Assembly: GCF_037975245.1 (NCBI RefSeq)
Contig: NC_092582.1
Span: 6,052,001-6,116,000 of the forward strand
DNA from: Apostichopus japonicus
Lineage: Eukaryota; Echinodermata; Holothuroidea; Aspidochirotida; Stichopodidae
Length of the DNA: 64,000 bases
Reading direction: 5' to 3'
A program made the position numbers and the translations under genes. Position 1 is the first letter of the stretch; every line of letters begins with the position of its first letter. The notes under the pieces are model-generated. The model was given only the letters and a program-made list of their open reading frames with translations, was not told the DNA's origin and made no database searches. Positions 8,502-56,700 of the stretch are shown one piece after another.

Positions 8502-8572
8502 GTGTTGACGGGGAATCGAACCCGGGACCTCGCACACACAAAACGAGAGCCGTACCTCTAAACCAATAGGCC
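8502..8572 (-). pseudogene. tRNA-Pro-like sequence inside the satellite, copy 1
   Basis: On the minus strand there is an A box (TTGGTTTAGAGG), a CTCG...CGAG anticodon-type stem, and a B box in CCCGGGTTCGATTCCCC. It most resembles eukaryotic tRNA-Pro. The anticodon loop is two bases too long, and the two strands of the would-be acceptor stem (GGCCTAT and TCAACAC) do not pair. It is a tRNA-like promoter body or SINE head, not a functional tRNA. Confidence 0.7.
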
Positions 8573-9732
8573 GCTTGTATATAAGCTAACATGGTAGCCA
8601 AGCCTACGTAGCTTCGACACGTCGGCTTCCAGCCAGTCGGTAGTAGCTATCGGCATACCTTCGACACGAGAAATAGATGACGTAATCACAGCAATTGCCT
8701 ATAGCAGATCGGTACTAGCTATTTATTGACCGTGGAAATGGTTACCCTAGTGTATCTGTTTACAAATCATTATACATATCTACAAATTATCCCCGAAATC
8801 AGCGTCTAATTCGTCCCTTATGGACGCAATCTACACGTAATAATGCTCACTCGAGCCTGCTTGGGCTCGAAGGAACACAAATGCGACAAGACGAGGGCAT
8901 ATACCCCTAACACGTAGGCTCGAGACATCATCTACACGTAAAACACTCCCTTACGGCGACTGTATACCTTCGACACGAGGAATATATGACGTAATCACTG
9001 CAATTTCCTATAGCAGATCGGTAATAGCTATTTATTGTTTGTGGAAATGGTTTCCCTAGTGTATTTATTTAAAAATCATTATACATATTTACAAATTATC
9101 CCCGAAATCAGCGTCTAATTCGTCCCTTATGGACGCAATCTACACGTAATAATGCTCACTCGAGTCTGCTTGGTCTTGAAGGAATAAAAATGCGAGGCGA
9201 CGGAGTCATTTACCGCTTACACGAAGCTTCGAGACATCATCTACACGTAAAGAACTCCATTGCGGCGACTGTATAGCTTCGACACGAGAAATAGATGACG
9301 TAATCACAGCAATTGCCTATAGCAGATCGGTAATAGCTATTTATTGACCTTAGAAATGGTTACCCTAGTGTATTATTTACAAATCATTATACATATTTAC
9401 AAATTATCCCCGAAATCAGCGTCTAATTCACACAAATCGGACACAATCTACACGTAATAATGCTCACTCGAGCCTGCTTGGGCTTGTAGGAATAAAATTG
9501 CGAAGCGACGGAGTCATTTACCGCTTACACGAACCTTCGAGACATCATCTACGCGTAATCGACACAAGGAATACATGACTTTATCACAGCAATTGCCTAT
9601 AGACGATCGGTAATAGCTATTTATTGACCGTCAAAACGTGAAAACAATTTATACAATTAAGTATTGAGAATGGAACAGATTCAAATGCAAATCAAAATAT
9701 TTTCTACGCGAAAAAACAAGAAAAAGGAAAAG

Positions 9733-9803
9733 GTGTTGACAGGGGATCGAGCCCGGGACCTCGCACACACAAAACGAGAGCCGTACCTCTAAACCAATAG
9801 GCC
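9733..9803 (-). pseudogene. tRNA-Pro-like sequence inside the satellite, copy 2
   Basis: Second copy, one higher-order unit (about 1231 bp) after the first. The A box is retained, but the B box is altered (GGGCTCGATCCCC instead of GGTTCGATTCCCC). The flanking gaaaaacaagaaaaaggaaa tract is shared by both copies, so the tRNA-like piece was amplified with the satellite. Confidence 0.7.
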
Positions 9804-10550
9804 GCTTGTATATAAGCTAACATGGTAGCCAAGCCTACGTCGCTTCGACACGTCGGCCTCCAGCCAGTCGGTAGTAGCTATCGGTATACCTTCGACACGA
9901 GAAATAGATGACGTAATCACAGCAATTGCCTATAGCAGATCGTTACTAGCTATTTATTGACCGTGGAAATGGTTACCCTAGTGTATCTGTTTACAAATCA
10001 TTATACATATTTACAAATTATCCCCGAAATCAGCGTCTAATTCGTCCCTTATGGGCGCAATCTACACGTAATAATACTCACTCGAGCCTGCTTGGGCTCG
10101 AAGGAACAAAAATGCGACCAGACGAGGGCATATACCCCTAACACGTAGCCTCGAGATCTCATCTACACGTAAAACACTTCCTTTCGGCGACTGTATAGCT
10201 TCGACACGGGGAATATATGACGTAATCACTGCAATTGCCTATAGCAGATCGGTAATAGCTATTTATTGACCGTGGAAATGGTTACCCTAGTGTATTTATT
10301 TACAAATCATTATACATATTTACAAATTATCCCCGAAATCAGCGTCTAATTCGTCCCTTGTGGGCGCAATCTACACGTAATAATGCTCACTCGAGCCTGC
10401 TTGGGCTCGAAGGAACAAAAAAAAAAAGCTAACAGACGAGGGCATATACCCCTAGCACGTAGCCTCGAGACATCATCTACACGTAAAACACTCCCTTTCG
10501 GTGACTTTATAGCTTAGACACGGGGAATATATGACGTAATCACAGCAATT

Positions 10551-33844: not shown

Positions 33845-36800
33845 ATGATGAAGCTACACCTCACTGGTTGTCCAAGTAAATGGAGTTTCTTAATCCAGTT
33901 TAGTCTTTTATTACTCTTATGTGGGTGCTATGCTAGTGGGGCAAACATTGAAATTGACCCAAATGGCTATGTTGCCTTTTGTCCCTGCATGGGTAAGTAA
34001 ACTAAAAGTCTTTTATGTTACTTCAATTGCAACAGTTAAAGAAGAATAAAAAGAATTACTCTGGTTGAGCATAGTTTAACATGTTTTAATGATAAGATTT
34101 TCCAATCAAAATTTACTGTGGTTGAAAATAGTTAAACGTGATTAAATGCTTAGCAATTTCCATTCAAATAAAACAAAGTTCAAGAAACCATAACAAGCAA
34201 CATATCATCAGATCTTGTGCCTCCAAGAAATTACTAAGGTAGGAACAGGTTTCATTGACTAAGATAAGTGGTTTAGTTGGATATGTTGTGTACAGTATAA
34301 CTGATGTGACTAGGACTTCTGAGGATATTACTACTAAGTAAGCTGCTGTACTCACTAATAATTATGATTTATTATAATAAAGTTAAATAAGTTGATGAGA
34401 TAATTGCCTGCCCCATACCCCAAAGCAGGCACTGACCTTTAAAAGCAAACCAGCCTGTTTGGGTCCAGTTCTGAGGCTTCCATATGATAAAGATATAAAT
34501 AGATCAATAAATCACTTTTTAAACTTGGTTGAAAATGGCAGTTTTACATTTTCAGACACATCGGCATTTAAGTTTAATTTCTTTTGTTACTTTGAAGTTG
34601 CTACAAAAGGTTTAAGAAAATGCACCATTTAATTAAATAAGAATTTCAAGTTGTTTTTGAATACCTATGAATTTAATCTATGATACTGGACCATTAACGT
34701 ACATTCTATTTATTTAACAGGTCGCTTCGGCAATCAAGCGGACCATTACTTAGGAGCTTTGGGATTCGCTAAGCAATTGGACCGGACCCTCATCCTCCCT
34801 CCATGGGTGGAATACCCCTACAGAAGTGCCACATCGGTCAGTATGCTCTGTTTATTTAGTAGATTTAGAAACAGACAGTCCCATCAAGGACCAACCATTA
34901 GTATATTTCACATTTGTCTCATGAGTTATTTCCAATCAGCTGCATCCATTGCATAAGAACACCCATTTGAATCTGTATACTAATCCTCAGTCAGTCATGT
35001 TACTAAACTTGTAGAGTACGACTTAAGACCAAGGTTGCAAATTGATGGTAATAAGAGACTCCTGTTAGAGTTGGATAGTTGAGGGTAATGGGTAGTTAAT
35101 GATTTCATTCAATTCCAAAAATTGCTTTTCCAGACTCAGGACATGTTAGTATTAATGACTTACAAAAGAAGTAAATATTTATCTTGTTTTTGACCAAGCA
35201 TTAAGATAATCGACTAAATACGCTGCTTTTGAGCAGCCGTCTAGGTTTGCTCATGCATTCTACAAAAACCAATGGAGTTTTACTCCAAATAAGGTTGCAG
35301 TTGATAAAAGAAAGACATCTTGCTAGATATTTTAACCAATTGATGATTAGTTTACAAGTATTTAAATACCTTTGGTTAAATTGTACCCATTTCATTGCCC
35401 AGACACATTTCCATATTGGTATTAATATTCGGCAATTTTGACAAAATTGCATTTTTGAATTATTTTTGCCATTTTACTCCAAATAAACTTTGACTGGAAC
35501 TACACTGATATGACTGGTTCGTTTGAATAGTATAAATAAAAACTGACTGGAATAGAACCAAAGAGCTTCTGTAAAGGAGACCCACATCCAACCATCATCT
35601 ATAGATTGTATGACAGAGATCTTTGTGAAGAACGTTACAGCCAAGATAGCTCATGTAATCTTCCATTTTGGAGATACAGTATCCTAGTTTAAAAGTCGTG
35701 TCTGAGAGAGTTGTCGTTGTTGTTGTTTGTAAATCTGTGATGTCATAGTGCCACAAGGATCTTAAACCTTTTACTTTTCTCTTTGTTTTTCTTTCTAATT
35801 TTCAATGTATTATGTTAACAGTGTTGACACTTTAATAACTAATGCAATCATGAGGTCTTGTAAAGAGCTTCAATATCTTAGATTCAGCATTTAAAAAAAC
35901 CAATATCCATTTACAGGAAATCATAAGGTCCCTGGTTCGAGTTACTCCCAGATTAATGTATGTCGTCCAGTTACAGAGTTGTTGACAATTGACAATTCAT
36001 AATCATGGACGTTAAATATGAATGTAAGAGACTGACTTCGGTCAGCTTGCGGCTTTGATAAGCCAATGAGGCTTCTTCGCGAGTTCCTGCTTGCAGGGGA
36101 TCTAAATACACAAATAAACATTCTAAGAAATTTAAAAATATATAAAAAATATTGAAGCACATGTGGCTTGATGTTATATATCCTGTTTCGACTTTACCAA
36201 GTGATCAGCCTTGTGTCAGAATCTGTGATATCTCCCAAAATTGAATTAGGTTTTTCTTAGCTGTTTTGTGAAGATGTTCAACACTGGTATGTCTATCAAA
36301 TTGACTAACAAGGAAGCCTGGGTTTGTGTCTCCTCTTAAAATTTGGTTTTAATCCATCTTTAATTTGACTGGACATGGTTTATTTTCAAACTTTATCGCT
36401 GTCGATGTTTGCAAATAAAGTTCTCTGTTCATACATTTCTTTCACTTTTTTATTTTTTGTATTTTGATGAACATACAGGACCAGATTCCATTTAAAACTT
36501 ACTTTGAGGTCGACACGATAGCAAAATACCACAGGGTCATCCCAATGGAAACATTTATGAAAGAATTGGCACCCACAGTTTGGCCAGAGGGTAAAAGAAT
36601 AGGTATGTTTGGAGCCACCGTTTTGCACTTACAGTACAGTACAGAAGATTCACCGTCACTCGGACACAAACTATTATCTTTATACGAGTGTGAGAATTTG
36701 TTCTCAACTTTAATACAAATGCCTGTCCATGTGTCGATGAAACCCTCACCGCCAAGGCGCCAACTAGCTCTAAACTCGTCATTCTGACAATCATGACAGT

Positions 36801-39800
36801 GTGTTACCTTTTTGGCCGTAGGGAGTTAGAACAAGAACTTTCAGTACATTGTTAAAAATTATTGCATGATTAGAAATAAAGAGGTATTCAAGAGAAATGT
36901 CTCAATATGTTTTTAGAATGGTGTTAGTAGGGCAGAGCGCTATAGTTTAAAAGTACCTTTGGAAGTGAAAAGTTCCTAGAAGCATGCCAACGATGATCAT
37001 TTCTAAGAGAGTAGGCTTGTCTAGAAGGAATATTAATTATTATTGGTGTGTTCATCAGGTGCTTTTGTCCTTAGGGATGGGGGCTTGGGCAAATAACTGG
37101 ACACATGACTGTCGACTTGAAGGGCCCTGTATACTGTACATTATAAAAACTGACTGGAAGTCGAAATCCTTGCAGCATTATGATAGCCTTTATTTATTAT
37201 TTGACAACTATTTTGCTTTTCATACTTTCCAGTTGAGAATCACTGTTTAAATATGTTTATTTTGTATTTTTAACAGGTTTCTGCTATCGGAAAGATGCCA
37301 CCTCGAATGAATGCAGCATGAAGAATGGAAATCCATTCGGCCCTTTCTGGAATAAATTTAATATCAACTTTGACGGATCCCAAGAATATTCTCCTCTCTC
37401 CTTCAGCAGTCATTCTGGATCGCTGAAAGCTCAATGGGATAATACGTAATTACCAACGTTTTATTGCCTCAAATTCTGTTACGTGAAATTGCATGACAGA
37501 ATTCAAAGCACAGATCACAAGTATTTACTGCTGCTAATTATTACCAGACTTAACTCACCTCTCTCTGTCGTTTGTAGACTTCCTGCTTACAAGTCACAAG
37601 TGCTAGTTTTCACTGCTTCGGATTATGCCCTTTCTTAGATCTTTATGTAGTTTTTAGATTTCCTGCTTCTGAGTACCAGTGCTAGCATTCGCTGCTTTGG
37701 ATTATGCCCTTTCTTGACTCTTGTCTTTATATAGTTTGTAGATTTCCTGCTTCTGAGTTCCAGTGCTAGTGTTCCCTGCTTCGATTATGCCCTTTCTTTA
37801 CTCGTGTCTTTATGTAGTTTGTAGATTTCCTGCTTCTGAGTTCCAGTGCTAGTGTTCCCTGCTTTGATTATGCCCTTTCTTTACTGGTGTCTTTATGTAG
37901 TTTGTAGATTTCCTGCTTCTGAGTTCCAGTGCTAGTGTTCCCTGCTTCGATTATGCCCTTTCTTAACTCTTGTCTTTATGTAGTTTGTAGATTTCCTGCT
38001 TCTGAGTTCCAGTGCTAGTGTTCCCTGCTTTGATTATGCCCTTTCTTTACTGGTGTCTTTATGTAGTTTGTAGATTTCCTGCTTCTGAGTTCCAGTGCTA
38101 GTGTTCCCTGCTTTGATTATGCCCTTTCTTTACTGGTGTCTTTATGTAGTTTGTAGATTTCCTGCTTCTGAGTTCCAGTGCTAGTGTTCCCTGCTTTGAT
38201 TAGGCCCTTTCTTAACTCTTGTCTTTATGTAGTTTGTAGATTTCCTGCTTCTGAGTACCAGTGCTAGTGTTCCCTGCTTTGATTATGCCCTTTCTTTACT
38301 GGTGTCTTTATGTAGTTTGTAGATTTCCTGCTTCTGAGTTCCAGTGCTAGTGTTCCCTGCTTTGATTATGCCCTTTCTTTACTGGTGTCTTCATGTAGTT
38401 TGTAGATTTCCTGCTTCTGAGTACCAGTGCTAGCATTCGCTGCTTTGGATTATGCCCTTTCTTTACTGGTGTCTTTATGTAGTTTGTAGATTTCCTGCTT
38501 CTGAGTTCCAGTGCTAGTATTCGTTGCTTCGGATTATGCCCTTTCGGTGCAATTTTCCCTCTGTCATTTGAAGAATTCCTGCCTCAAAGTGCCCAGTGCA
38601 TTACTAGTGATGATAATGTCCTCAATTCATTCTCTCTCTCTGTGTTTTGTAGATTTCCTGCTTCAGAGTTCCCAGTGCTAGCATTCGCCGGTGCCCCTGC
38701 GTCGTTTCCAGTGGAGAAACACAACTTAGATCTTCAGAGATACTTTAAATGGTCCAAAGACATAGAAGAGCAAGCCAACTTATTTATCATTGAAGAGCTT
38801 GCCGAGGGCCCATTCGTTGGAATCCATCTCAGGCACGGTCTGGACTGGGTATGTTAATGGCTTCTTCTTCTTCTCATTCTTCTTCTCATTAAAGGAACAT
38901 CTTCAGGAAAAAAATTTAATATTGATAATATATAAGTTATCCAACAAACATGCTAGTAGTATTTCTATGTTAAATGTATTGAACGTCATGTTCTGCTCAG
39001 TGTCTGGAATAATCCTCTTTTAAGGCTAAAAGGGTGTGAAGACTCGCGCCAAAAGAAACGTCTAATGCTGGTAATCTGACCTAGTTTCGAATGAGGTGTA
39101 ACAGAAGTGTTAGACACCACCATCGATCCCAGAAAATATACACACAGCTTGCTACCGTCGGTAATTAGACACTAGTGTAGAGTCAATACATACAGCTGCG
39201 GTCAATACCCACAGCACAGTATGCAAACGATACAGCGATGGACATCACAGGTCCAGCTAAAGATAACAAGGTATCACGTTTCATTACTGTCTGCATTTTG
39301 TGGCGACACGAACAAAACGTCACCTGCAAGCAGCGGAACAAAACTAAAAGTGATTAAAAGATACAGCCTTGACTGATAGCAATGTGATATGCTAAATGGT
39401 TACTTTCTTGCAGCGAAGAGGATTTCGTTTCCATGCATTTCTCTTGCATTCAAGTCAGTTGGGACGAACTTAACAAAATTAGAAATTCAAAACTATTAAT
39501 GGCCTCTTCATATTTTGCATGTCTTATTGACGAAACTTGCATGAAAGAAGATGACAAAAGATGACAAATTTTTCTCCTTTCATTTGAACCGTATGTTAAT
39601 TGATTACAATACTAAAACATCTCAACTTGATTTACCGTGATTTCTACATTTATTTATGAAATAAAGAATATGATCTAATTTGATACCACCAATGTTATTT
39701 CTGCCCGATTCGAAGCTGTGAGTGACACCCTTTCTCCTGCAATTAATTATATCAATGTGTAATTAATTAATTAATAATAATGAATGTGTCATTTATGGTG

Positions 39801-41153
39801 ACATTTAAGTGAAGAGTGGTCATTTTGATACATTACCCTCACCTCAATAAGCTGTTTTATTGATGTTTTTTAATTTTTTTCCCCTCCTTTCAGGACAATG
39901 TTTGCACTCATGTTGATAGCTCTCGCCATCTCTTCGCCTCCCCCCAATGCCTGGGTTATTTTAACGAGTACGGTACGGTTACCAAAGAACTCTGCGCTCC
40001 GCCTAAGGATGTCATGAAGAAACAACTCAAGAAAATTGTGAAGAAAATTAAAGCAAAAGCTGTTTTCGTGGCCACAGATTCGGATGCAATGATCAACGAG
40101 CTACAGAAGGCTGTAAAAGTGAGAGACTTTTTCTTTTTTTTCTAATTTTTGGTATGAAATAAATATATAATATCAGTGTACTGGGAAAATAACACCTGAG
40201 GTATTTTATGAGATACGTCTAGGAAACAAAGAGTGTTCCTTATTATAGGGGACTTGATTCAGGTTTTCAAGATTTTGTATGGTATTGACAATTTATCCTT
40301 CACCGACTTTTTCATGTTTGCTAATAGTAGTTGTACCAGAGGTCATTGTATTAAACTCCAAAAGTCACAAAGTAGGATTAATATTCAGCATAACTTTTTT
40401 TCTAATAGGGTTGTGAATGAGTGGAACGGTTTGCCTGAGAAAGTTGTACTTGCAAGTAGTGTGAATGGGTTTAAGAATGCTTTGGACAAACACTTTAAGC
40501 ATTGTAATCGTGTCTGAGTGTTTGTGTTTTCATTTTTTTCTCTCTCCTATAGGGTCCTTGATGGTGACTTGAGTGTCCCTCCTGATCCTTTTTTTCTACT
40601 AAACTAAACTAAACTAAATGCTACTTTATGAAATGGTTGCTAATTCCTGCACCCGATATGTTTCTATACTTGGACTGGTCCGATGGGGAATGAAGACACA
40701 GAAATAGGACTGAAAAACAAAATGTGATAAAAGGGAGACCACAATGTAAATATTAGAAACAATGCAAGAGGGTAGTATCACCCTGCTAAAATTGACCCTG
40801 TTACCCCCCCCCCTCATCCTTCTCTCTCCCCCATTCCCTACCCTGTTCCAAACCTAGTTAATGTTAAAATTAATGAATATGACAAAAGCATTGTCTCATC
40901 AACCTTTATTTCATTGTTTAAAGCATGTGGACACAGCAGCATAACAATTGAATTTCATTGTTTCCAGGTGAAAGTCGTACAGAGGACCCCAGCAGAGCCT
41001 CATGTGGACCTAGCGATCTTAGCAAAGTCCGATCATTACATTGCCAACTGCGTGTCTTCATTTTCGTCCTTCGCAAAGAGGGAGAGGGACGTCTACGGTA
41101 AACCCACGTCTTTCTGGGCATTCACACCAAAAGAAACCAAGCAGGAACTTTGA
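33845..41153 (+). CDS. POFUT1: GDP-fucose protein O-fucosyltransferase 1, complete, 7 coding exons
   Basis: ER enzyme that transfers fucose from GDP-fucose to Ser/Thr in EGF-like repeats of Notch-type proteins. Exons: 33845-33992, 34721-34836, 36479-36602, 37277-37445, 38653-38848, 39894-40118, 40968-41153; total 1164 nt, 387 aa, against 388 in human. All introns are GT-AG with matching phases. Residues 1-32 form a signal peptide (hydrophobic [10 protein letters not shown]). [13 protein letters not shown] (about 46-58) begins the GT65 fold. NPFGPFW follows, and [10 protein letters not shown] (242-251) carries the Arg (246) equivalent to the essential Arg of the family. FVATDSD and [15 protein letters not shown] line the nucleotide-sugar side. 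The C-terminus is KQEL, a KDEL-type retrieval signal (human RDEF). The start is the first of two adjacent ATGs; nearly identical proteins would result from either. Introns 2, 4, 5 and 6 carry repeats. Confidence 0.97.
33993..34720 (+). other. POFUT1 intron 1
   Basis: Donor gtaagt, acceptor tatttaacag. A+T-rich with no embedded element recognised. Confidence 0.85.
34837..36478 (+). other. POFUT1 intron 2
   Basis: Donor gtcagt, acceptor aacatacag. Contains a SINE at 35925-36115. Other open frames in it have no support. Confidence 0.85.
35925..36115 (+). mobile_element. tRNA-derived SINE, copy 2, 5'-truncated
   Basis: Begins within the tRNA-like head (aatcataaggtccctggttcgag, covering the B box) and continues through the same body as the SINE at 905-1145. 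It ends in an A-rich ctaaatacacaaataaac tail. The A-box half is missing. Confidence 0.75.
37565..38652 (+). repeat. 83-bp minisatellite in POFUT1 intron 4, derived from the exon 5 splice acceptor
   Basis: The acceptor-like sequence gtttgtag-atttcctgcttctgag recurs at (position of the G of tag) 37577, 37657, 37741, 37824, 37907, 37990, 38073, 38156, 38239, 38322, 38405 and 38489. A degenerate copy lies at 38573, then the authentic exon 5 acceptor at 38652. Each unit also contains a copy of the start of exon 5 (cagtgctagcattcgc). Spacing is 79-84 bp, and the real exon is in register as the last unit. Confidence 0.95.
38849..39893 (+). other. POFUT1 intron 5
   Basis: Donor gtatgt, acceptor cctttcag. 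Contains a MITE copy near 39025-39300; the rest is A+T-rich. Confidence 0.85.
39025..39300. mobile_element. MITE (TTAA-type), decayed copy
   Basis: Starts aaaagggtgtgaagactcgc and runs collinear with the element at 49962-50326 (ctgacctagtttcgaatgag, cttgctaccgtcggtaatta, aaggtatcacgtttcattac). The right inverted end is lost. Confidence 0.75.
40238..40620 (+). mobile_element. 5'-truncated non-LTR retrotransposon (CR1/L2/Jockey-like) 3' end
   Basis: An open frame (40233-40517) encodes the C-terminal tail typical of reverse transcriptases in this group: a [10 protein letters not shown] start, [25 protein letters not shown], then a FKNALDKHF end. A short 3' UTR ends in ctaaa tandem repeats (about 40597-40619). 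5' truncation and a simple-repeat tail are normal for LINE copies. It sits in POFUT1 intron 6 in the sense orientation. Exact clade uncertain. Confidence 0.85.
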
Positions 41154-44100
41154 TGATTGTTCATCAGATGTGGTCTACTCTTTTAGAGTTCGACGTATCT
41201 TCTATATGTGTGGTCTTGCAGTGTGGGCAGACTGATGGCCTTGTCAGAGATGGCGCAACAGATACAGAGAGAGAGAGAGGGAAAGACTGGAACTGGTGAC
41301 AAAACTGTAATGGTGGTCTAGAAAGTAATTCACAGATGCAGTTGAAAGTAAATTCAAAGGGATTAAGGTAAAAGCAAATCCAACCATTGTCCTTAATCTT
41401 TGTATGACAGAGATAATCTTGATGAGCAATTCCCCCCAAAACAGATATTAATGAAAATTATATATTAGTTTAGAAGGTGAATTTATTTTTTAGGGTTCCC
41501 TTTATGTATTAGAGAGAAGACTTGAGTAAGTCTGATATGTAAACCACAGAGGCTAGCTTAGTGTGGTATGAGACATGTGATGTTATCATTCAGGTTGTCG
41601 ACCTTGTTATCTTTTATTCAATCAAAGTTGATATTTGAAACTAATTTGGGAAAAATGATGAAATGATAATCAAAATGTCAATAAGTCATAGTTTTGTAGA
41701 ATTTCTGCTGTTTTGTTCCCAAAAAAAAAAAGCAAAGCAAAGGGAAGCAAAGAGATTTTGCCTTCTGATTTAGAAAACTTCAGCCCATTGATATTAGTTT
41801 AAATCTATAGAATCCCCTCAAATAATCAAAGGACTTAATTTATCTGTTTAAAGGGAGGTGCTCTGCATGAACATCAGCTATCTCATAAGGCTAAGAGGCA
41901 GGCGATGGTTGGGTTTGGAGCTCTTTCAGAGTAGGTGGTGATTTGTTCTAGTTCATGAAGGGTTTTGCTATTCATTATTTTTTGCTGTTGTTTTTGTGAG
42001 GCTGATAGGTACGACAAAGATCAAGGTATTGGAAAAACAGGGATTAAAAAAGGAACCAGTATTTCAAAATATTCAAGATATGTTTTTAAACATGCCGTTA
42101 GAATTGATATTTCTTATGTCATTATCAGTACTACGGAAGTGTGTTAGTAGATGAATGAGTCATAAAAAGCATTCAAGAAAAGTTAAAAAAATAATCTTTA
42201 AGAAAAATAAATTATGATCAAAATGGGACAAAAAAAAAAAAAAAAAAGGGCATTGGAAATGTTTTTGTTTTTATAAATTAAAATTCTCGGTACATTACTT
42301 TAAGTAAATACCTAAACGTAAAGGAAAGGAATATTTTCTTAATATCTGGGTACATCTATAGAGAAATTCAACTTGAAAAGTAAATATATTTTCGGAGTGA
42401 ATGTATTAGATGATTTCAGTATTTACCTTTTGCTGTGTATGTTGAAGTTAAATGATTTTTGCTAGTTTCTGCTTAAAAAGAAAAAGAACAAAACAGAGTG
42501 AATCCTGAAAAAAAAAAATATGACTCGAAAAATTGTAAATGAATTTTTAAAGCGCAACGAGCTATTGGATGGAATGGCAGGATTCGAGCAAGTGATCTTA
42601 TTATAAGTTTGCTCCACCAAATAAGCTATCTGACCTTTTGTCTCAAGAGAAACTTGACATTTTTGTAGTTATAAGTCAAATTTCGAACAGAAAACTAAAC
42701 GGGACATGAGTTTTAAAAGAGCTCAGGAATCAGTAACTTAGAATGATATGAAACTAGTTTTAAACCAACAAATTCTTTCTTAAATTGTTAGGACCAAAAT
42801 GGCTTTGTGGGTTTTACATCGCTTATAATGCCATACACCGGTATATTTGTGAACTGTGAATTTATTTCTTCTCTTCAAAATTGTAAATTGAATAGGGCTT
42901 TTTTATTACTTATAACTTATTGTTAATCTTTATTACCTAAATATCTTTCACTTTTTATAAAAAGAAGTTTAGCTAAATTAGGAGGGGGTGGTCAGGGGGG
43001 AGGGTGGGGGTTAGGAGGAAGTAATGACAACAAGAGACCAAACTCTTTTCTTTAAAGTAATACTACATATGTATAGGATGGGGACTTCATCTGGTGACCT
43101 CAGGTCAACATGGTATGTGCTTTTCTAATCCAGTCCACAAGTGTTCAGCCTGTCCTTAGTACTTCATTCCTTGCCATGGATCTCAAATTCTGGATTTTTC
43201 AAAATTTTCTACCGTTTTCTTTATTTTAAGGTTAAGTCTAGTCATTACCAGTGATTTTCCTGGATCCACTGATTGAGGAAGGGGTGGGGGAAGGGGAGGG
43301 CGGGGGGGGAGGGGCGGATGATTACGGAATTTTTTCAAAGTCATAACTCATTACGAATTGGAGTATTTCACAGATATCTCCTTAGTGTTGTTTTGATCAA
43401 AAAACTATATATATATATTCTGACAATAACTTGTCTTCCAAAGTCAGTATATATATCTTTTTTTGTATTTTTTTTTTAATTTTTATAAAAGTAAATTTGA
43501 TAAAGAGTAATTTAAAGAGTTCTATCTTGGTAGTTTTCCCTAGATTCAGAAATAACATTATATTTCCATTTCTACACACAAGATCTTTCAAGAATTCTAG
43601 TACAATGTCTTCTGATGGTCTAGACAAAAAAGAAGCCAATTTTGTGAACAGGCAGATTTTTTTTCCTTCGAAGGAATATGTTTGGAAGAAAACAGTTGAG
43701 ATGTAAAAATCGTTTGCTACAGATTTATTTTCATGTACTGCATCATGTTGTTTTCTCTTTGTTATGATTTCATTGATCTTGAATGTTTTAAAAATTTAAT
43801 GTTTATTGCTTTTCTCTTTCTTTCTTTGTTTGTTTGCTCAATTTTTGAAGCAAAGATAATTTGTGCAAAAGTAAAGTGTCTTGCAATTATTGCTATGCTG
43901 CTGTTGACACACACATGGTACCTTTCTCATTTGTTTTGTTTTGTTTTCCATAAATATTGTTTCTTGAAATAGCTGAAGGCATTCCCAAAAAATATTGCTG
44001 TCTCTATGGTATTCATTTCGTTACAGTTGTTGGAGTAAGGCAGCTGTTTTGAAACCCTGTTTGCTTTCTCTTCACAACTCTTTCTGAGACTTAAAGTTTT

Positions 44101-46120
44101 AGTCGTAGCAAAACGTAGAGACATCTGAGATGCACAAAGCTTTTTCCACAATTTAGCGTAATAAGTAAAGACATTTACAGAGATAGAACATGTAAATTAT
44201 ATTGATTTGAATATAGGTGACAAATGTATATTTGCTATTTATATGGTCTTTCATATAGAGCTGAGTTAAAAATGTTACATGACCAAGTACTACAAATGCC
44301 TTTGGGGTAAATTATCTTTCTTCTTCTATTTTTTTTTTGGGGGGGGGGGGGAAATATTTGGAGGGAGGGAGGTGGAGTACATTTTGTATAATCTAATGCA
44401 TTTCAGAGGCATCAGATTTTTGGTATCCAATTTCTTTTTAAACACAGGCATTCAATTTTTTCAAAGGGTATTCTTGAATGTATCACATACCTCTTGGAAC
44501 ATGGTCAAGTACTTTTCACTGCAGTAACCTTACAAGATCAGATCAGTGAGTGAAGAAATGTTTCTTCTTCTCTCTCTTTTTTTTTCACTTTCATAGATTT
44601 CATTTCTGTCTGTCAGAAAAACCAGTTCTAAGGGAAAGATAAGTTAAATAAGCTGGAGTTAATAATAGAAAGGGTATTTCTGTACAATGAATTTAACATG
44701 AATTTAAAAAGTTCTCCAAACTATGCATAGTCTTTTGTTAATCTTTTGTTGGTGCTGGTTAATTGAAAATTTGAGTACCCAATACTACAGAGAAATGAAC
44801 TCTGAGAAATCTCCGTTGTTTGTATCGGTGTTACTAAGCTTACTTGCCATTGGAATATCCCCAAATATGCAAGCCGAAACAAAGGCAAAACAAATTCACT
44901 GTTTCAAATTAAATCTGTTAAAAGTTGGAGGATTTGATGTTATGACTCTAGTGGAATCTTCTTCAGATTTTAGCTGGCTCTTGTTAACAGTAACCTGAAG
45001 ATGTTGCTAGGGTCAAGAGATCAGGCCCTCTGACTTTCATATATATTTACAATTGTATGTTAACATTTTATTTCTCTCTTGGTTCAAGTTGTAGTCTGTC
45101 TGACCATTGGTTGTCTTGCCATGCAGTTGGGACAATTCTTTCCATACTGCATTGTCATGTCCCTCTTCAGAACACTGGTATTGTCAGTATGAGCAGTATG
45201 AATATCATGTTTCTATCAGAAATAAAAGGTTAGGAACTGTTTGTACTGTCAATACGAGTGCTTTGAAGCATGATATGTGAGGACAGTTTAGAGAGGTATT
45301 AGCATTAGGAAATTGTCCCAACTGGCTGGTTTTTACAGTTACATTATACTTCGAACTGAAATATCAATATCAAGGAACAAGTTTGGGTTTCTTTGCTTAC
45401 AATTTTAGCTTGCTTAAAGCATGGGGGAGGAGGGGGGGGGGGTGGTGATACAGGTGAACTTAACACTGTTAAAATGATTTTGTACAAACTGTTTTTTGTT
45501 TTTGATGCACTGGGATCAAGTTTGTTTCCTTTCACTAGTCTTGCTTTCAAATTTCTCAACATTTTTTTCACCGATTTTGTAAAGTTGTTTTATATATCTT
45601 TTTCCTGGTTTGGGCACGGTTAGGTTGTTTTGTATGATAAATCAGATGCTTACATGTGTTTCTATGTTTAGTATTTGCATTTCAAGTGTTATATTATAGA
45701 AGTTTTTGTTTGCTGTAAATGTTGGAGATTGTGGAAAATCTTTTCAGAAATGCTGCTCCTTCCTTTGCTTAATTTACACTGTCATATTTGTGAACAATTT
45801 TTCTACAATTGTTTTTTTTTCCTTCAATTTAAGGGTTGGGGAACTACAAAGTGTGTGTCATTTGCAATACAATATGCAGTAGTTTCAATCCTGTTGCATT
45901 TCTCTATTTCATTTGAATGTAGCTTCATGGTTTTTTCCCCCCTCAACTAGAAGAAGGGCTGTATTCAACTGCCGAAACAAATTGTAGCTAAATATGTCAG
46001 AAAAAGAGTAAAAAAGGTTGCATGGAAGCTGACTTTCCTTGATACAAATGCAAATACTGCAATAGACCTCAAGGATTCCCCTACTCCTCTTATCTTCACA
46101 TAACCATGTGCTGTATGCAA
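41154..46120. other. POFUT1 3' flank and intergenic A+T-rich region
   Basis: The POFUT1 3' UTR must begin here. An aataaa lies near 42204, but I cannot fix the polyadenylation site. Poly-A (42228-42247) and poly-G (44339-44351, 45430-45442) runs occur. Several 70-90 codon frames (43273-44998, 45344-45950) are low-complexity and unsupported. Confidence 0.45.
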
Positions 46121-46228
46121 TTGATTCTTCCTAACAGTATATGAAAGTATGATCATTGATTCTTCCTAACAGTATATGTAAGTATGATCATTGATTCTTC
46201 CTAACAGTATATGTAAGTATGATCATTA
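46121..46228 (+). repeat. 35-bp tandem repeat, 3 copies
   Basis: Units begin at 46121, 46156 and 46191 with ttgattcttcctaacag and end at tatgatca. Two of the three units contain atgtaagtat. Confidence 0.92.
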
Positions 46229-49200
46229 TCTGAAGCCGTGCAGGTGCTCATGCAGACGAGCTTACTGAGATCAGAGTAAAACATTGATGTCAAAGGTCAT
46301 CAGTACTGACTGTAAATTTGATCATACTAAAAATTGAAAAAAATATTCAAAACAGATTTTACTGGCAGTTCTTTCTGAGTATCTCCAAATCATTTCCAGC
46401 CGTTTTAAGTGTTGAATTAGACAATTCAATATTTCAAACGGGGAAAACTTCTTTGTGGTTGGCCAAAAAATGACAAAGCTGGAAAATCAGCGACCATTAT
46501 TTGACTTTTCTATCACATTTCGGGCTCATACTGATGACCTATATAAAGTAGATAAGGTGATGGGAAATGTAGAGGAATTTTATGGATTTAGCCATGATTG
46601 ATTTCATTAAGGCAGTTCTTTGAATTCATGATTTTGTGACCAATTCATGATAGAATGGCTGCCAGACTACCTGCATTGTCTATTACTAGATGATCTTATC
46701 ATAAACCACCCCTTCCCCCCCCCCCCATCCTCTGCAACAGCCTCCACACCAGCCCAGAGAGGTACATATGAGAATGTGGGGGGGGGCCGGGAATCTTGAC
46801 TGAATTTCTCATTTGTTTACATATGGAAGCATATCAAGAACAGCGGCAGTGTTTTCTTTCCTTAAAACATCGGCATTAAGTTCCCTTAGCTTCAAACCAT
46901 GGTCTTGAGGAGGTCTTACTTAACTGTTGAACTAGTTCGCAACATGTTTTATACTGTATATTTGGCACAAAACCTACCAAGGCACTAACATTTAGCAAAA
47001 AAAATTAATATTCATACCAAAAAAACAATAACCTTCACAACATCGTACACAAACAAAAGCAAAAATAAAAACATAGTTTTCAAAAACAGATGTCTCTTCC
47101 TGTATTTCTGTTCTGTTTAATCAACCATTCATAAGGTGTACAACCTCAACATCGGAACCTCCTTTGTATAAATGATTTAATCTAGTAATAATAACTAAAT
47201 TCACTGTCCTAATTAATACTTACATCCATCAATTAATTTTGCCATCACACTTCTGTATGAAATAATGGCCCTTCCACATTCTGTAGCACAGTGTTGAACA
47301 TCACTGCAGCGATATTCAAACAGACATAATTTAAAGTACTAATCCGAGACAAATTATCACCTTATATAACATGTTATGACCAAAACAGATTGATAAGAAT
47401 ATTCTCATATCTTATTGTGATTTGACGGAAAAAAAAAGAACACACCTAGCCAAATAAAACAAAACGAATAAAGTCATATTTTTTTTTTATGCACTCTGGT
47501 AATACAATGTCCAACCTTTAGTAAGTTGCAAATCTCAACAACAACTAACCGAAAACAAAATAAACACCAAGTCCTATCGGTGAGTGCCAATGATTCAGAA
47601 CCCAATTCACCTATTTATCCACCGTAAGAAACTAAATGCAGGGCTATGGATGTAAAGCTAATGCAGTAATACATCCATCCACAGGTGATTTAATAACCTA
47701 GCACGAAGAGGCTGCCGTAATGACCTCTTATAAAGAAGCATTAAAGCTCACAGACCCTACCTACCTCCAGAGTGGTGGCACCCAGCTAGCCACCCACCCC
47801 TCCCCCATCCAAGGATATAAATATGGCACCAAGCATGCAAAGTTTTTTTTTTTGTCAACCACTTGGTTAAAAGGTATAACAGTCCATGCAAAAGAGAGAT
47901 TTAACTATTATGATTTAACAGAAAGAATGGCACCAAACACACTGGACTAAATTCAAAACCTCAAAATAACCTGATCAAAAATGAAAAAGCAAATTCTACA
48001 CACCAACACCAATGTATGACATATAAATTGTTCTTAAATTTGACCTTATGCATGAAGATTAACAAATCCCTTCATCTCCCCCACCCACCCACTCACCACC
48101 CACACCCCCTCACAACAAAAAAGGAAGGGAAAAGGCATAATTGCACCTGTTCAATAGAACTGCCCAACATTTCTTAATTTGATCTCTACAACCCCACCCC
48201 TCAATCATGAGATGTTCTTGAGCACATAGGCTCTCTACGTTTGATATATTTATCGGCTTTTCTCATGCAAGCCGTAGGATTTTTCTTTCTCTTTTTCTCG
48301 TCTCTCTAGTCACCTGAAAGGATATTATAACGTAGACAGGTCAAGTTAATTTTAACATGAAAATAACAAGAGATTACTGAACATTAACTAACCCAAACCT
48401 ATAAACTCTCCCTCACTCCCTCCGTCCACCTCCCCCTACAACAAGATAAGAAAGACAAAAATCAAATCAAAGAACAATATAACAAATTACATTTAGGAAG
48501 CAACAAAACCGGTATAATTTCATTATTTTATCATTTTTGTTCATAGATATTATATATATATAGGTTTATATACACACCAAAGAAAGGATTGATTCATACC
48601 ACTGTGGCATTGCACGTTCTCTTCAATACTTGGAAATTAACATATTTACCAGCTCAAGACATGTATGCAATAAAAAGGTTCTGTCCAACCTAGACTGATA
48701 ATGTAAGGCAAATGTTCTATCACTATATAATACACCAAACCTGAAAAAATCCCTTTGTCAATGGCTTTATATTTTTCTCTATGCCAATTTCATCTTTTAT
48801 CTTTCAGCTGTGCAATTAAACATGCACTGATGATGCAATTTTATTAATTTGTTAAGGAGGAGGTCGAGGAAGGGAGTGATGGTGGGGGAGGGGAGGGGAG
48901 GGAAAGGGGTTGTCAGCCCCAAAACTCTTTCAACATCAGATTGAGGAAAGTAAGTCATTTCTGATCTTAGTTTAACAATCGGCTGAAGTAAGTCCCCAAC
49001 GTCATCCTGAAATATGCTAGAAAGTAAGTCACATAATGGTCAGTCACGTTCAACAAGCACATTACAATCATCGTCAACCCAGCATGCATGTCTCATCTTT
49101 GAGAAATTTTTTAATCGTCAAACTTTAACACATCTCACAACTAGGAATTATCTGAAGGGTACGGACCTAACTTAAGCATCCTTGCCTGTACTCCTTCTAG

Positions 49201-49961
49201 CACTCATTGATTACTCGTAACCATACTCGAGACACATTTTGAAATCCAGCATTGGTACAAGATGAAGTATTTGTACTCTAGCTTTGTACTCGTACTGCTA
49301 ACAACCCTACGTGTACTCAAAGTCATGTCATTGTACAGATCAATAAAAGTATACCCACTGCACCTTATGGAGTCTGGTGACAGAGTTCCAAGCATTCATA
49401 CAGTCCATTGCATGATCAGTTATATGGAGTCAGGTCACACATGGTGGTCCTTTAAACTGAGTGTAAAGAATTTTGAAAAACCACTGCTTTCACAAAGCTT
49501 CTCAACACACACCTTCCCTCCCTCCCCCCCCCCCCCGCCTCCCCACACCCAATCCCCATCATATTTATCAACCCTCTTCAAATGTTTTTCTGCTTATTTG
49601 ATATAACAAAATGGAACATAGATGAAACAAAATGAACATAGATTGAAATGTCTTACCCAATCTTTCATTCTAGCATACAACCATCAAATTTCAGTCTTAA
49701 CAAAATATAATTCGTACAATTTCTCCAGCCAAGTTCGAGAAAACCAAACCCTTTCTGGCAGGCAGGGAATAAGTTTCTACTCAACGTTTGTGTAGCAGCT
49801 CTGAATTTTGTCTTTTATAAAACACCATGGTTACCATGTACAAAAAAAAAAAACCACTACTAATCTTAGAATGTGTATAGCAAAGTGACAATTTGCATAG
49901 CATTTTGCAATGTGAAACTGGATACGGTATTCCCTCTGTAGTAAATGTCTCCACTGTGACC
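46229..49961. other. Intergenic region between POFUT1 and ATP13A1 (convergent 3' ends)
   Basis: A-rich on the plus strand, with C-runs near 46712 and 49526. No gene recognised. The 114-codon frame at 49262-49606 is not supported by any motif. Part may be 3' UTR of ATP13A1, since TTTATT (AATAAA on the minus strand) occurs at about 48840. Confidence 0.45.
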
Positions 49962-50326
49962 TTAAAGGGTGTGAAGACTCGCGCACAAAGAAACCTTTCA
50001 TGCCGGGAATCTGACCTAGTTTCGAATGAGGTGTAACAGAAGTGTTAGACACCACCACCGATCCCAGAAAATACACACACAGCTTGCTACCGTCGGTAAT
50101 TAGACACTAGTGTACAGTCAATACATACAGCTACGGTCAATACCCACAACACAGTGTACATAGCAGCAATGGACATCTCAGGTCCAGATAACAGATAACA
50201 AGGTATCACGTTTCATTACTGTCTGCACTTTGTAGCGACAAGAAGAAAACTTCACTTGCAAGCAATGGAAAGTTAACTTTTTCAGAGCGCGGCACGCGGT
50301 TTGGGGCGAGTCTTCAATGCCTTTAA
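49962..50326. mobile_element. MITE with TTAA target sites, intact copy
   Basis: TTAA at 49962-49965 is followed by agggtgtgaagactcgc, and gcgagtcttcaatgcct is followed by TTAA at 50323-50326. The ends are imperfect inverted repeats. TTAA duplications fit piggyBac-type movement, but the ends lack the usual CCC start, so the superfamily is uncertain. Shared with 39025-39300. Confidence 0.75.
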
Positions 50327-50793
50327 ACAGGAGGTGGCTTAAACAGGAGTCAATCCCTAAAAAATTATTTTTTGATTTGTGAAATAAATCAGTTTCTCTT
50401 TTGGTACTATCTTGTCTTCAAATTGATCCCTTGTTTCATTTTCTTCAAATATTTGCAGACTTTTGTGAGCTTAAATGTAAGATACATCCCCAAAAGTTAA
50501 AAAAAGTATAATTCTAAACTGACACACACAATACTTAATTTCAAGCAAATTAGTATACGATGATTCTTTCAGCATTTTTGATGTACAAATACTCCATCCA
50601 TTCTTTCTCATCTCTCAGAAGAAAATTCCAAAAAGTTGGAATTTTACTTCGCTGTGTTCCGCTCGCCTTCGTTCAACTCCGATGGACAATCACTCATTTT
50701 GTCAATCTCTCAACCTCTCGTATGCACACCAGGCCATCGGTGGCTGTCTGAAGTTTTTTTTCAGCATTTTGAAAATCAATTTGAAAAGTCGAT

Positions 50794-53700
50794 TCACTCT
50801 GCTTTCAATTTTGATGTACCCAGACAGAATTGGAGAAATCTGTCCACCATAAGAGCGGCCACGCAGTCAATCAGTAGTACCTTCAACAGGAGCGTGCGAT
50901 ACTGTAAACAGAAATTAAAAACTTCTGGTCAAAAATTACCGAAATTTTTCCTATTGGTTTGTGAAACAGTCAACATAAAGATTGTATTGATAAAGTTAAT
51001 CATGCATGTGGTAAGTCCCGGTGATTGTTGGCAACAGTATTAGTGTAAATTACTTGTAATGACCAGCATCCACTTCAAAAAACATAAAATCAATAGAAGT
51101 TAACTTATCATTCAAACTGATATGTCAACTTTAAGGAATTGTTAGGAACCATACCTCGAAAGGCAATTAACAACAGATAGTAACATAACTCACAGGCAGT
51201 TAACAACAGATATTTAACATACCGCACACAATATTAACAACAGATAGTGAACATGTCTCACAGGGAAATAACAACAGATAGTTAACATACCTCACAGAGA
51301 AATAACAATAGATAGTGAACATAGATCACAGGCAATTAACAACAGATAGTTAACATACCTCACAGGTAATTAACAACAGATAGTTAACATAGATCACAGG
51401 CAATTAACAACAGATAGTTAACATACCTCACACAATATTAACAAAATATAGTTAACATGTCTCACAGGGAAATAACAACAGATAGTTAACATACCTCACA
51501 GGGAAATAACAATAGATAGTGAACATAGACCACAGGCAATTAACAACAGATAGTTAACATAACTCACAGGTAATAAACAACAGATAGTTAACATACCTCA
51601 CAGGGAAATAACAATAGATAGTGAACATAGACCACAGGCAATTAACAACAGAGAGTGAACGTACCTCACAGGCAATTAACAACAGATAGATAGTTAACGT
51701 ACTTCACAGGAAATAACAACAGATAGTTAACATACCTCACAGGCAATTAACAACAGATAGTTAACATACCTCACAGGTAATTAATAGCAGATAGTTAACA
51801 TACCTCACAGGCAATTAACAACAGATAGTTAACATACCTCACACAATATTAACAAAATATAGTTAACATGTCTCACAGGGAAATAACAACAGATAGTTAA
51901 CATACCTCACAGGGAAATAACAATAGATAGTGAACATAGACCACAGGCAATTAACAACAGATAGTTAACATAACTCACAGGAATTAACAACAGATAGTTA
52001 ACATACCTCACACAATATTAACAAAATATAGTTAGCATGTCTCACAGGGAAATAACAGATAGTTAACATACCTCACAGGGAAATAACAATAGATAGTGAA
52101 CATAGACCACAGGCAATTAACAACAGAGAGTGAACGTACCTCACAGGCAATTAACAACAGATAGATAGTTAACGTACCTCACAGGAAATAACAACAGATA
52201 GTTAACATACCTCACAGGCAATTAACAACAGATAGTTAACATACCTCACAGGTAATTAATAGCAGATAGTTAACATACCTCACAGGGAATGAACAACAGA
52301 TAATTAACATAACTCACACAATATTAACAACATATAGTTAACATGTCTCACAGGGAAATAACAACAGATAGTGGACCTATCTCACAGGGATTAACCACAA
52401 ATAGTTAACATACCTCACAGGCAATTAAATAACAGATAGTGAACATACCTCACAGGGAAATAACAACAGATACTTAACATACCTCAAAAAGAATTGACAA
52501 CAGACAGTGAACCTACCTCAGCTGGAAACTCAATCACAGAAAACTGATCTGAAAATTCAGGCACTATTCCCAGTGTGAGAGACACGATTGAAATGATTGA
52601 AAACATCAGGCTGTATAGAAGGGGTTTGTTATCTTTCAAGCTCTCCATAAACGGGTGACCCTAGAAGTAAGAAAGAAAATTGGAAATTGAGGGAATACAT
52701 CAAAACAAACTGCCACTGTTGATAGCCTAGTTCAACATAATGAACGGTTTCTAAGATTTCATGTTATTTCCATATCCTTGTTTCCAGGGTAAATTTCAGT
52801 CTTTAAATCTGTAGAGATGTTTGGAGAGCATATTGCATGCAGTGTTCCCCCCCCCCCTTTCCATTCCCCTACGTGGTACCAGACCATCATCCCCTTTGCC
52901 TATATAGTACCTAGCCTATATAGTAACTAGCCTATATAGTAACTAGCCTATATAGTACCTAGCCTATATAGCCTAGCCTATATAGTACCTAGCCTATATA
53001 GTACCTAGCCTATACCTAGCCTAGCCTATATAGTTCCAGACCAAACAGTTAGTTTCTCATGTATAGACGAATCGACTTCCATAGTAAACAGAACAGACAA
53101 AATATTATAAAGGTAAAGAAAAGAAGAAGAAGACAAAGAATGTGGCCTCTGACCTTGTAGTTAATAGCAAATGTGTTGACTTGGAGCATCATAGATATTA
53201 TGTACACAGTGCTGTTCAGAATATTTGGTTGAAATTCTGCATCTAAATCTGGAAAGCCGGATTCCCTGGTAAAATAAAAAGAAAGAAGAAAATTAAAAAA
53301 TGGATAAAGTCCTAAATAGGATTTTCTTTGAAAAGCAGTATACAATTAACTTATGAAGGGCAGGGCAGATCCAGGATTCTACACAGAAGAGTGTGACCCT
53401 GAGGTCCTTGAAGGTAACTGGCAAGAAGGGTGGTATGGGGGACCAACCCCTCCACCCCCCCCCCAAAAAAAAATCAAAATTGTAAACTAAGAAACATACT
53501 CTACATTCCACAAACTAACTGGAGGTTGTATTTATGCAGGTTGCAAGAAATACATCACCACTGTTTTAATCTTAATTATAACAGCAATATTTAATTATTT
53601 AATTACTTAATTATAACAGCAATACTGGTGTTTTGGTCGTTAGTATGCTTGGTTGAAAAAGTCAAATTGCTTGTTTCACATAAATGCATCTAAGCCAACT

Positions 53701-56700
53701 TCTAATAAAGGGAATTTGAAATATAACACATTGTGAAACGCTGCACAATACCACTGCCATCAGAAAGACCACATCGATTTTATAATCAAAACAAGAGTGA
53801 GCTGCATTCCCTAGCAACAGTTTGAGAAGCACATGTTGCTACAATTTATAACACAAGCATGGTATGTTTCAAATGTGAAGTGCAAAGTTTTACTAACCTT
53901 TCGGGCATCCTTAATTTTGCTTCAGAGACTAGTTTCATTAAGCACCAGAAATGGACTCCAAACTGAAGTAGAACAGTAAGGACCGTATACAGGTTGAAGA
54001 TGTTAGGTAGAGGTCGGTTCTTGGACAACGTCTTCAAAGGCTGAAATGAAGCGGAAACATATCTGTATTAGAGCAAATCGATCATGATCAAGATGCTAAA
54101 ACCCAAAAATGAATTTGGGAATAATTCTCGAAAGGAAATTCGGTATTCTGTCGTTAATAATCATTAATATTGCAGAATTCAAGACACTTTTTTTGAATAT
54201 CAGACCTCCCAGCGGCCCTTCCACATAATGACGGTTTTTTAAAGGCTTCGAACATGAAAATAAATGTTTTTAAAGGTCGGAAATAAAGTTAATTTGTAAC
54301 ATACTCACCACCTATGCCCATTTTTACATCATCTGTGGCCCTTATTTAAAATACCTGACTTACATTAACTGCTGTTTGCGAGTCTGTTTTGTAGCACTGC
54401 ATGAATCATGCCTGGCTGTCCACAGAAACTTAATGGGCACTGGTTAGCATGACTGAATGCAATATTTCCACTCTAAAACTAAATCTTTAAAATATTTTAA
54501 ACTTAATATAAAAATAAAGGTTCAAAAGGTTTCAAAGAGTATTTTTCAAAAATAAAGAGCCGTTTCTTAAATAAAGGTTTTTTTAAAGGTTTTAAAGGTT
54601 TTGCTGGGAGATCTGTGATATATATAAGCTATTGTACTTCTTACCTTAGACCTTGATATGAATAGGAAACAGCCAGCCAATAGAAGCCCCTGTAAAGTAG
54701 CTTGACCATCACTGAACTTGACACCATCTAAATAGAGCACACTTTGACTGTACGCCAATATGAGAGCATTCAGTGCTAATATTTTAAACATCTGCAGCGT
54801 GGTCACTAAAGTACAGCGACCCTGCTTGACAATATGACAGACTGTAACAGAGAAGAGAAACGGTTTCGTTATCGTTTAGATTCGTACGTATTTCAATCCT
54901 CAATCCCAGAGCTACGAAAAAATGTCAAATTATACGCAGAAATGCTTTTTGACTGAGAAAATGGATGACGGCATCACCAGTGAATTTAACTAGCAGAAGC
55001 TAGAATAGGTATGCATAGTGATGAGATTCATAGTGATGAGCATAGAGTATGCATAGTGATGCTGGCATCACCAAAAATTGACCTTATCAAACTATATAGA
55101 ATATACTCCAGATGAGAATGATGATGTTTGCATCGCTAATGACAGAACCACCACAACCCACAGAATCTAGTGAAGGTGTGCATAGTGATGCTGGCATCAC
55201 CAAGGATTGACCTCATCAAACTATATAGAATCTACTCCATATGAGAATAATATCTGCACTGCCAATGACGGAAGCACCACCAATTACAGAATGTGGTTTA
55301 AATGTTTATAGTGATGCTGGCATCACCAAGGTTTGACCTCATCAAACTATATAGAATCTACTCCAGATGAGAATAATATCTGCATTGCCAATGACGGAAG
55401 CACCACCAATTACAGAATGTGGTTTAAATGTTTATAGTGATGCTGGCATCACCAAGGTTTGACCTCATCAAACTATATAGAATCTACTCCAGATAAGAAT
55501 AATATCTGCATTGCCAATGACGGAAGCACCACCAATTACAGAATGTGGTTTAAATGTTTATAGTGATGCTGGCATCACCAAGGATTGACCTCATCAAACT
55601 ATATAGAATCTACTCCAGATGAGAATGATGCCTGCATCGCCTATGACTGAAGCGCCACCAATTACAGAATGCAATTTAAATGTTTATAGTGTTGCTGGCA
55701 TCACCAAAGACTGATTCACAAACTATGCAGAATCTACTTCTGATGAGAATGATGCCTGCATCGCCAATAACTGAAGCACCACCAATTACAGAATGCGGTT
55801 TAAATGTTTATAGTAATGCTGGCATCACCAAAGACTGATTCACCAAACTATGCAGAATCTAAATATTTAATGACAGTGATGCTTGCATCACCAAGGACTG
55901 ACTGACTCACCGCACTGTATAGAATCTAGTTTGGATGTGAATGGTGATGCTATACTGGCATCGCCTAGCTTCACTATCTGAGGCTGATCTTGTTCTTCCA
56001 GCTCCTTCATCATGGCGTTTAACTTTTTCTGGGTCTACAAACAAAACGTTGAAACTGAGTAAGTTTAAGATCTCTGTAATGCAGTATATTATCAAAAACA
56101 GGAAAAACATAGCTTCCTTTTCTCTCTCATATGTAAAATTTGGATTCCACTCACCCGTGTAAGATCTTCTCCCCTGGCACGACGAGGGCCAGCCCTTCCA
56201 GCCAAGTGCCTGGTTTTGTCTTCATTACGACCTTTGACCCCATCGTTCTTATGTGACCTGGCGTCGTCTTTCAGCTTATGGTTATCGGACCTTCTTCTGG
56301 CTGATACAATCTGGAGAGGTTTCACACTGTCAGCAGAAGAATTATCTACGGATGTACCGTCCGTCTGATGAAAGAGGTGAAAAGAAACAACTTTAAAAGG
56401 ACAGTGTCTAACATTTGCAGTATATTTTCACCACAAACTAGTAGAAAGACATATCTTAGAAACATGCTATATTGCAAATATATGAATTTATAAAGTTTAG
56501 AGCTAGTTTGGGGGAATTATTGCATCTGGCAACTCAAGAGTGACATTGTCATGGCAACAGGGCTGAAAATATCTTTGTGTGTAAAGTACCATGTATACAA
56601 GGTAAGCATATATATGCATGAATGTGGAACAGGACTCCTCCATTCACCGAAACAATAAGTTAGGTACAGATCCCTTTCCACCAATTTGGTTCAGGATATC

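Follow-up and report, generated by a model that had tools for sequence, protein, structure and literature searches.

The 64,000-nucleotide stretch of the Apostichopus japonicus genome analysed here (contig NC_092582.1, positions 6,052,001 to 6,116,000; hereafter, the window) contains two neighbouring genes, one POFUT1-like and one ATP13A1-like, and three minisatellites in their introns that repeat sequence around splice junctions (Table 1). Array 1 is a copy of an acceptor, array 3 is a copy of a donor, and array 2 starts at and repeats a donor. Minisatellites spanning exon-intron boundaries have been described in amphioxus genes under the name of mirages (PMC3087553, PMC3902484), so that such arrays do belong to a named class, contrary to what a preliminary description of this DNA had assumed.

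When joined, the 24 modelled exons give an open frame to a single terminal stop in both POFUT1 and ATP13A1, with GT-AG introns. The best match of the POFUT1 model in the PDB is 5ux6 (phmmer, E 1.5e-100), and that of the ATP13A1 model is 9jbz (phmmer, E 2e-262), an endoplasmic reticulum (ER) transmembrane helix translocase that we take to be ATP13A1 itself; both alignments are free of gaps over all three array-linked junctions. The outer ends of the models are less certain. The POFUT1 model started at position 33880, which is not in frame with its ATG, and the uncertain start adopted here, 33845, corresponds to the earliest in-frame Met in the gene's first open stretch; ATP13A1 extends past 64000, with more exons outside the window, and its edge at 63320 is uncertain as well. 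Neither of these ends was ever counted as a junction.

Table 1 Features of the two genes and of the three junction arrays in the window.
Feature	Position	Strand	Size or composition	Remark
POFUT1-like gene	33845..41153	+	7 modelled coding exons	GDP-fucose protein O-fucosyltransferase 1
POFUT1 intron holding array 1	37446..38652	+	1207 bp	
Array 1, acceptor-derived mirage	37566..38545	+	83-bp minisatellite x 11.8	
Degenerate array 1 copies	38546..38652	+		From array 1 to the working acceptor; exon plus gap score 70, p 0.002
POFUT1 exon matching array 1	38653..38848	+		Acceptor and first 29 nt match the array 1 unit
ATP13A1-like gene	50794..63320	-	17 modelled exons in the window	P5A ATPase, ER transmembrane helix translocase
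Array 2, starting at a donor	51150..52520	-	34-bp minisatellite x 40.3	
ATP13A1 exon at array 2	52517..52660	-		Ends in FPAE; donor GAG|GTAGGT at 3' end
Array 3, donor-derived mirage	55053..55861	-	126-bp minisatellite x 6.4	Two half units of ~63-64 bp
Divergent junction copy at array 3	55862..55910	-	First 49 intron bases	Joins the exon to array 3
ATP13A1 exon at array 3	55911..56034	-		Source of array 3 at its 3' end

The unit of array 1 aligns across the working acceptor (first exon base 38653) over 29 exon and 42 intron nucleotides, and none of 1000 shuffles aligns as well; the array carries 12 copies of TAG|(A/T)(C/T)TTCCTGCTT. The unit of array 3 aligns across the donor whose last exon base is 55911, including 57 exon nucleotides, again with 0 of 1000 shuffles as good. 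The donor motif is weak in the copies of array 3, with two sites inside the array at score 6.0. In array 1, identity to the consensus is 92-100% for the inner copies, 80-82% for the end copies, and 87% for the junction; the respective values in array 3 are 87-100%, 80% and 79%.

The A. japonicus assembly (671,581,487 bases in 35 contigs) was searched with the array units by a procedure that scores the best candidates only and skips very common words, so that further weak matches may exist. The 13 matches listed for the array 1 unit comprise the array, its frayed end and window positions 38635-38681 (E 1.8e-6), and the seven listed for the array 3 unit comprise the array and positions 55875-55946 (E 3.6e-8). 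Thus, among the listed matches, each of these units has only its own junction besides the array, which indicates that both arrays arose in place, and since conserved protein is encoded on the exon side in each case, it is the exon that served as source. All 18 matches listed for the array 2 unit fall inside array 2. The idea that the units derive from a repeat dispersed in the genome was considered and rejected, given that every match among those listed sits at its own locus.

In array 2, the donor itself (last exon base 52517) lies inside the array and is repeated in register: GAG|GTATGT occurs 18 times, compared to GAG|GTAGGT at the true donor, and the junction 40-mer recurs at score 38, against a background maximum of 30 among 3,388 values. 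No signal comes from the exon side by itself (631 of 1000 shuffles align as well; p 0.56), so that the exonic share of the array 2 unit is unproven. The proposal that all three arrays are in register with exon boundaries holds for arrays 1 and 3 and, for array 2, as far as the repeated donor is concerned. When the array is cut by a simple script, 24 of the 40 units begin with GT and 16 do not. In the latter, the G is swapped for three different bases, and in some of them a GT lies one or two bases away (GTGGTCTATG, 4 times); of the 34 columns of the unit, a single one is less well conserved. Either sub-family drift or selection that disfavours decoy donors could account for the missing GT. Decay of decoy motifs as a rule was rejected, because some of the GTs of array 2 are merely displaced, and arrays in chaperonin genes (below) retain theirs.

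Several other repeats are present in the window. Beyond the POFUT1 coding end, at 46120-46227, a 35-bp unit is repeated 3.1 times, with CCTAACAG followed nearby by GTAAGT (GAAAGT in the first unit), so that the units resemble a repeated tiny exon. Two similar dispersed copies, recognized by eye and running from GTGTGAAGACTCGCGC to CAATACATACAGCT, lie in a POFUT1 intron (39020-39370) and beyond ATP13A1 (49965-50320), and are perhaps a short mobile element. An array of ~61-bp units at 63827-64349, which runs past the right end of the window, is located 58 bases downstream of the ATP13A1 donor at 64408; its unit shows no match to that donor junction. Large arrays occupy the left part of the window, at 7846-10551 (309-bp units), 17969-18937 (138-bp units), and 21363-22784 (400-bp units).

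When the eight intronic arrays are placed randomly in the two genes as single seeds, 0.49-0.80 junction-spanning units are expected, and the probability of at least three is 0.006-0.027, a post hoc figure whose range depends on the settings. The suggestion that the triple co-location is unlikely to be due to chance is borne out to this extent, but once array 2 is excluded, the probability of at least two such arrays under the same placement rises to 0.07-0.18. The three arrays account for 19% of the intron length of POFUT1 and ATP13A1, and the three introns that hold them have array-free remainders of only 227, 248 and 260 bp. Given this array content and the post hoc nature of the test, an independent sample was needed.

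We sampled 31 stretches (273 kb in total) from the Pfam exon lists of CCT chaperonins, myosins and adaptins, picked before their sequences were seen. The CCT part consists of 9 multi-exon loci minus one piece of an array-rich gene on C17 (hereafter, the C17 gene, of which the stretch G000:C17:156000-165999, or L013 1-10000, belongs to the sample), with the single-exon matches C8:490794 and C3:29768027-29769685 excluded; the myosin and adaptin part consists of 16 stretches with at least 3 listed exons in 10 kb, with two adaptin clusters (C3, C13) passed over. Aldehyde dehydrogenase matches (13 scored of 132 candidates) were left out of the sampling. Exon edges were set by Pfam exon ends together with splice-motif scoring, and 12 of the 232 edges score below 4. 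Dropping 2 of 52 candidate introns, one incomplete and the other without a fitting splice pair, left 50 clean introns.

Arrays with a period of at least 15 cover 9.9% of the 273 kb (27,062 bp in 94 arrays, or 92 once contiguous pieces are joined) and 7,849 of the 45,507 bases in the clean introns. The 20 arrays in these introns are distributed among 18 of the 50; 4 overlap a donor and a fifth is 11 bases away from one, whereas the closest approach to an acceptor is 32 bases. In the C17 gene, a CCT gene, 6,827 of 10,000 bases belong to tandem arrays, two of which start at donors. In-register junction arrays (score at least 36) were found at 6 donors and 1 acceptor of the sample, confirming that such arrays recur in the genome outside the two genes of the window. 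One CCT gene contains a 46-bp unit with 11 sites GAG|GTATGT, including the true donor, and in another of its introns, 121-bp units that incorporate 60 bases of the exon. Another CCT gene carries 36 donor-like sites, with ATG|GTGAGT at 30, along with a 31-bp array, the first units of which repeat TACATCACTG|GTA. One myosin gene has two donor arrays, and a different myosin gene has one acceptor array.

The position of the copied sequence relative to the junction was profiled by testing, at each offset, whether the local 40-mer is found again within the adjoining 1.2 kb of intron, at a score of at least 34 that was reached 0 times in 3,388 background trials; 34 of the 276 edges, lying near fragment ends, were left out. 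For 100 donors, at offsets -80, -60, -40, -20, -10, 0, +10, +20, +40, +60, +80, +100, +150 and +200, copies were found in 1, 3, 3, 4, 6, 7, 9, 10, 10, 13, 15, 17, 16 and 17 cases, respectively. For 99 acceptors, there was 1 copy at each offset from -80 to +60, followed by 6, 5, 9 and 12 at +80, +100, +150 and +200. Thus, the junction itself is copied at 7 of the 100 donors and at one of the 99 acceptors, and no peak at the junction was detected in either profile, only a smooth ramp from the exon to a plateau in the intron. The acceptor ramp is displaced 60-80 bases into the intron, as expected where the branch point and the pyrimidine tract are guarded. At +60, donors and acceptors differ (13/100 vs 1/99, Fisher p 0.0013; 9/95 vs 1/94, p 0.018, if the C17 gene is left out), with a 95% confidence interval of 0.034 to 0.231 for the difference in a bootstrap over 26 loci. 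Arrays are scarce in exons and before acceptors, and exons and the 60-80 bases preceding acceptors are probably for the most part protected from them.

We consider it likely that these junction arrays result from random birth of minisatellites in array-rich introns, filtered by splicing and tolerated mainly at the start of the intron. Tandem duplications would arise throughout introns, with some founding units happening to span an exon-intron boundary. Copies of a duplicated donor would sit downstream, in the intron, where the exon-adjacent first donor still defines the exon; such a duplication would thus be tolerated and could grow by slippage or unequal crossing-over. Copies of a duplicated acceptor would come to lie upstream, with AG sites ahead of the true one, and because of these decoys, most acceptor duplications would be purged, as would duplications within exons. 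An established array would homogenise internally, while coding and splicing constraint would hold the working, exon-proximal copy, which would therefore come to look like a divergent end unit. The coding continuity of the models suggests that the exon-proximal donor is the one used for splicing; we further infer that the arrays originated by mutation and that selection caused the donor-acceptor asymmetry. Of the causes entertained in the preliminary description, tandem duplication tolerated as long as the outermost splice site stays intact fits best. Special seeding at splice junctions is not supported, given that recurrence ramps smoothly without a junction peak and acceptor-spanning arrays are not in excess. 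Nor do the arrays point to R-loops: in a weak test, the mean GC skew of mirage arrays is 0.205 (n=7), compared to 0.180 (n=43) for the others (P 0.82).

A number of results weigh against random birth followed by filtering. Array 1 survives with its 12 upstream AG motifs, one of which outscores the true acceptor (9.1 vs 8.7), so that acceptor arrays evidently can persist, and most of the decoy donors of array 2 outscore the true donor (11.0 vs 9.0). At offset 0, the difference between donors and acceptors has p 0.065 (p 0.21 without the C17 gene, at 5/95 vs 1/94), so that the gap at the junction itself is no more than suggestive. The window holds 3 spanning arrays, compared to 0.5-0.8 expected. 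Because arrays grow in introns and coverage counts accordingly favour the intron, each array of the sample was also placed as a single seed. With the shortest periods, four of which were chosen manually once the arrays were known (with one altered greatly, from 214 to 62), 6 arrays span donors vs 1.6 expected (P 0.006; 4 vs 1.1, P 0.023, without the C17 gene), 1 spans an acceptor vs 1.7 expected, which is no excess, and the pooled count is 7 vs 3.3 (P 0.046). The test of array-junction matches that the preliminary description had proposed genome-wide was thus applied to the 273-kb sample. With the periods reported by Tandem Repeats Finder, there is no clear excess (donor contact 5 vs 3.3, P 0.24; acceptors 1 vs 3.4), although among arrays of at least 3 copies and at least 100 bp, 4 contact donors vs 1.3 expected (P 0.03). 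Arrays of at least 100 bp are concentrated in the first 100 intron bases after donors (11 vs 3.0, P 0.0004; 8 vs 1.7, P 0.0004, when the C17 gene is set aside) more than in the 100 bases before acceptors (4 vs 3.0); more than one length class and distance bin was examined, these P values are uncorrected, and the loci form a small, clustered set. Selection acting as a filter removes arrays but adds none, which leaves room for a birth bias on the donor side. Under such a hotspot, transcription or 5' splice-site recognition would raise tandem duplication in the ~100 bases around donors, the candidate causes being R-loops, nascent-RNA invasion and replication conflict. We regard this alternative as unlikely: the offset profile lacks a junction peak; when all array lengths are counted in the 100 bases beside the junction, acceptors lean the same way (8 vs 4.9, P 0.11) as donors (12 vs 4.9, P 0.003); the GC skew of mirage arrays is that of other arrays; and the null takes no account of seed removal in exons and near acceptors. 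The corresponding general picture, in which minisatellites originate preferentially within ~100 bases of the start of the intron, including across the donor, so that several percent of donors (7 of the 100 sampled, with 36 donor-like sites in one case) are arrayed and the cell uses only the first, appears equally doubtful.

The repeated sites might instead be employed, as alternative donors or acceptors that tune splicing or expression. The splice motifs are indeed retained in the 12 AG copies of array 1, the 24 GT-starting units of array 2 and the 11 GAG|GTATGT sites of the CCT gene, and the human 6-16 (IFI6) minisatellite reportedly provides multiple splice donors, to go by the title of a 1995 study by Turri. 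However, array 3 is the only one of the 10 junction arrays whose unit length is a multiple of 3 (in one of the others it alternates between 69 and 73), and reading on from the true donor of array 2 runs into a stop within the first unit, so that use of these sites would mostly break the protein. Moreover, splicing seems to be undisturbed by amphioxus mirages, as suggested by reverse transcription PCR in the available text of that report (PMC3087553), and a regulatory role therefore seems very improbable. Just as improbable is intron gain, whereby the introns would have arisen by tandem duplication of an exon piece bearing AG|GT, with the arrays as remains. The available text of the amphioxus work proposes intron gain, with a model for the globins (PMC3087553), and the units of array 2 do contain AG|GT. 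Against this, the opposite ends of the three introns keep 120, 248 and 211 array-free bases, and the units match neither the opposite junctions (p 0.50 to 0.95) nor the 60 nt of the opposite exon (best p 0.63).

The occurrence of mirages at ~7% of the sampled echinoderm donors suggests that they are possibly common in deuterostomes with repeat-rich introns. The available text of the amphioxus reports treats mirages gene by gene (PMC3087553, PMC3902484), and the A. japonicus sample adds a rate and the donor-acceptor asymmetry. Junction arrays amount to natural competition tests for splicing: at the start of such introns stand 11 to 36 donors that resemble one another, some with better scores, and the exon-proximal one has to win, which opens the rules governing 5' splice-site selection to testing. 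Instability in array length might also generate variation in splicing.

As far as the available text of the amphioxus reports goes, mirages occur there in Adh3, in the globins BflGb6 and BflGb9, and also in TnC and PGBD5, at donors or acceptors, with units of 10-72 or 150-160 bp, many of which carry AG or GT signals; the inner copies are homogenised, the end copies are not, and array length changes somatically and between haplotypes (PMC3087553, PMC3902484). The A. japonicus junction arrays look like the same kind of element in an echinoderm. They, too, are tandem repeats within genes, with minisatellite-sized units that, in arrays 1 and 3, span the exon-intron boundary; splice motifs AG or GT are present in the units of arrays 1 and 2, and weak in array 3; and arrays 1 and 3 are homogenised inside, with the end copies left out. 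They depart from the amphioxus reports, so far as the available text of these extends, in the host, in having been counted against a null in a sample, and in the donor-acceptor asymmetry. Among the papers listed by searches of the open-licence literature, which misses most subscription journals, none showed mirages in echinoderms. The human 6-16 minisatellite resembles these arrays in supplying repeated donors, but its sites are said, in the title mentioned above, to be used as alternative donors. Introns are also reported to originate from tandem arrays or to be gained through tandem duplication (Zhuo 2007; Gao and Lynch 2009). The shared feature is the tandem duplication of sequence containing splice signals; in that process, however, a new intron is made, whereas the A. 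japonicus arrays enlarge an existing intron from one end.

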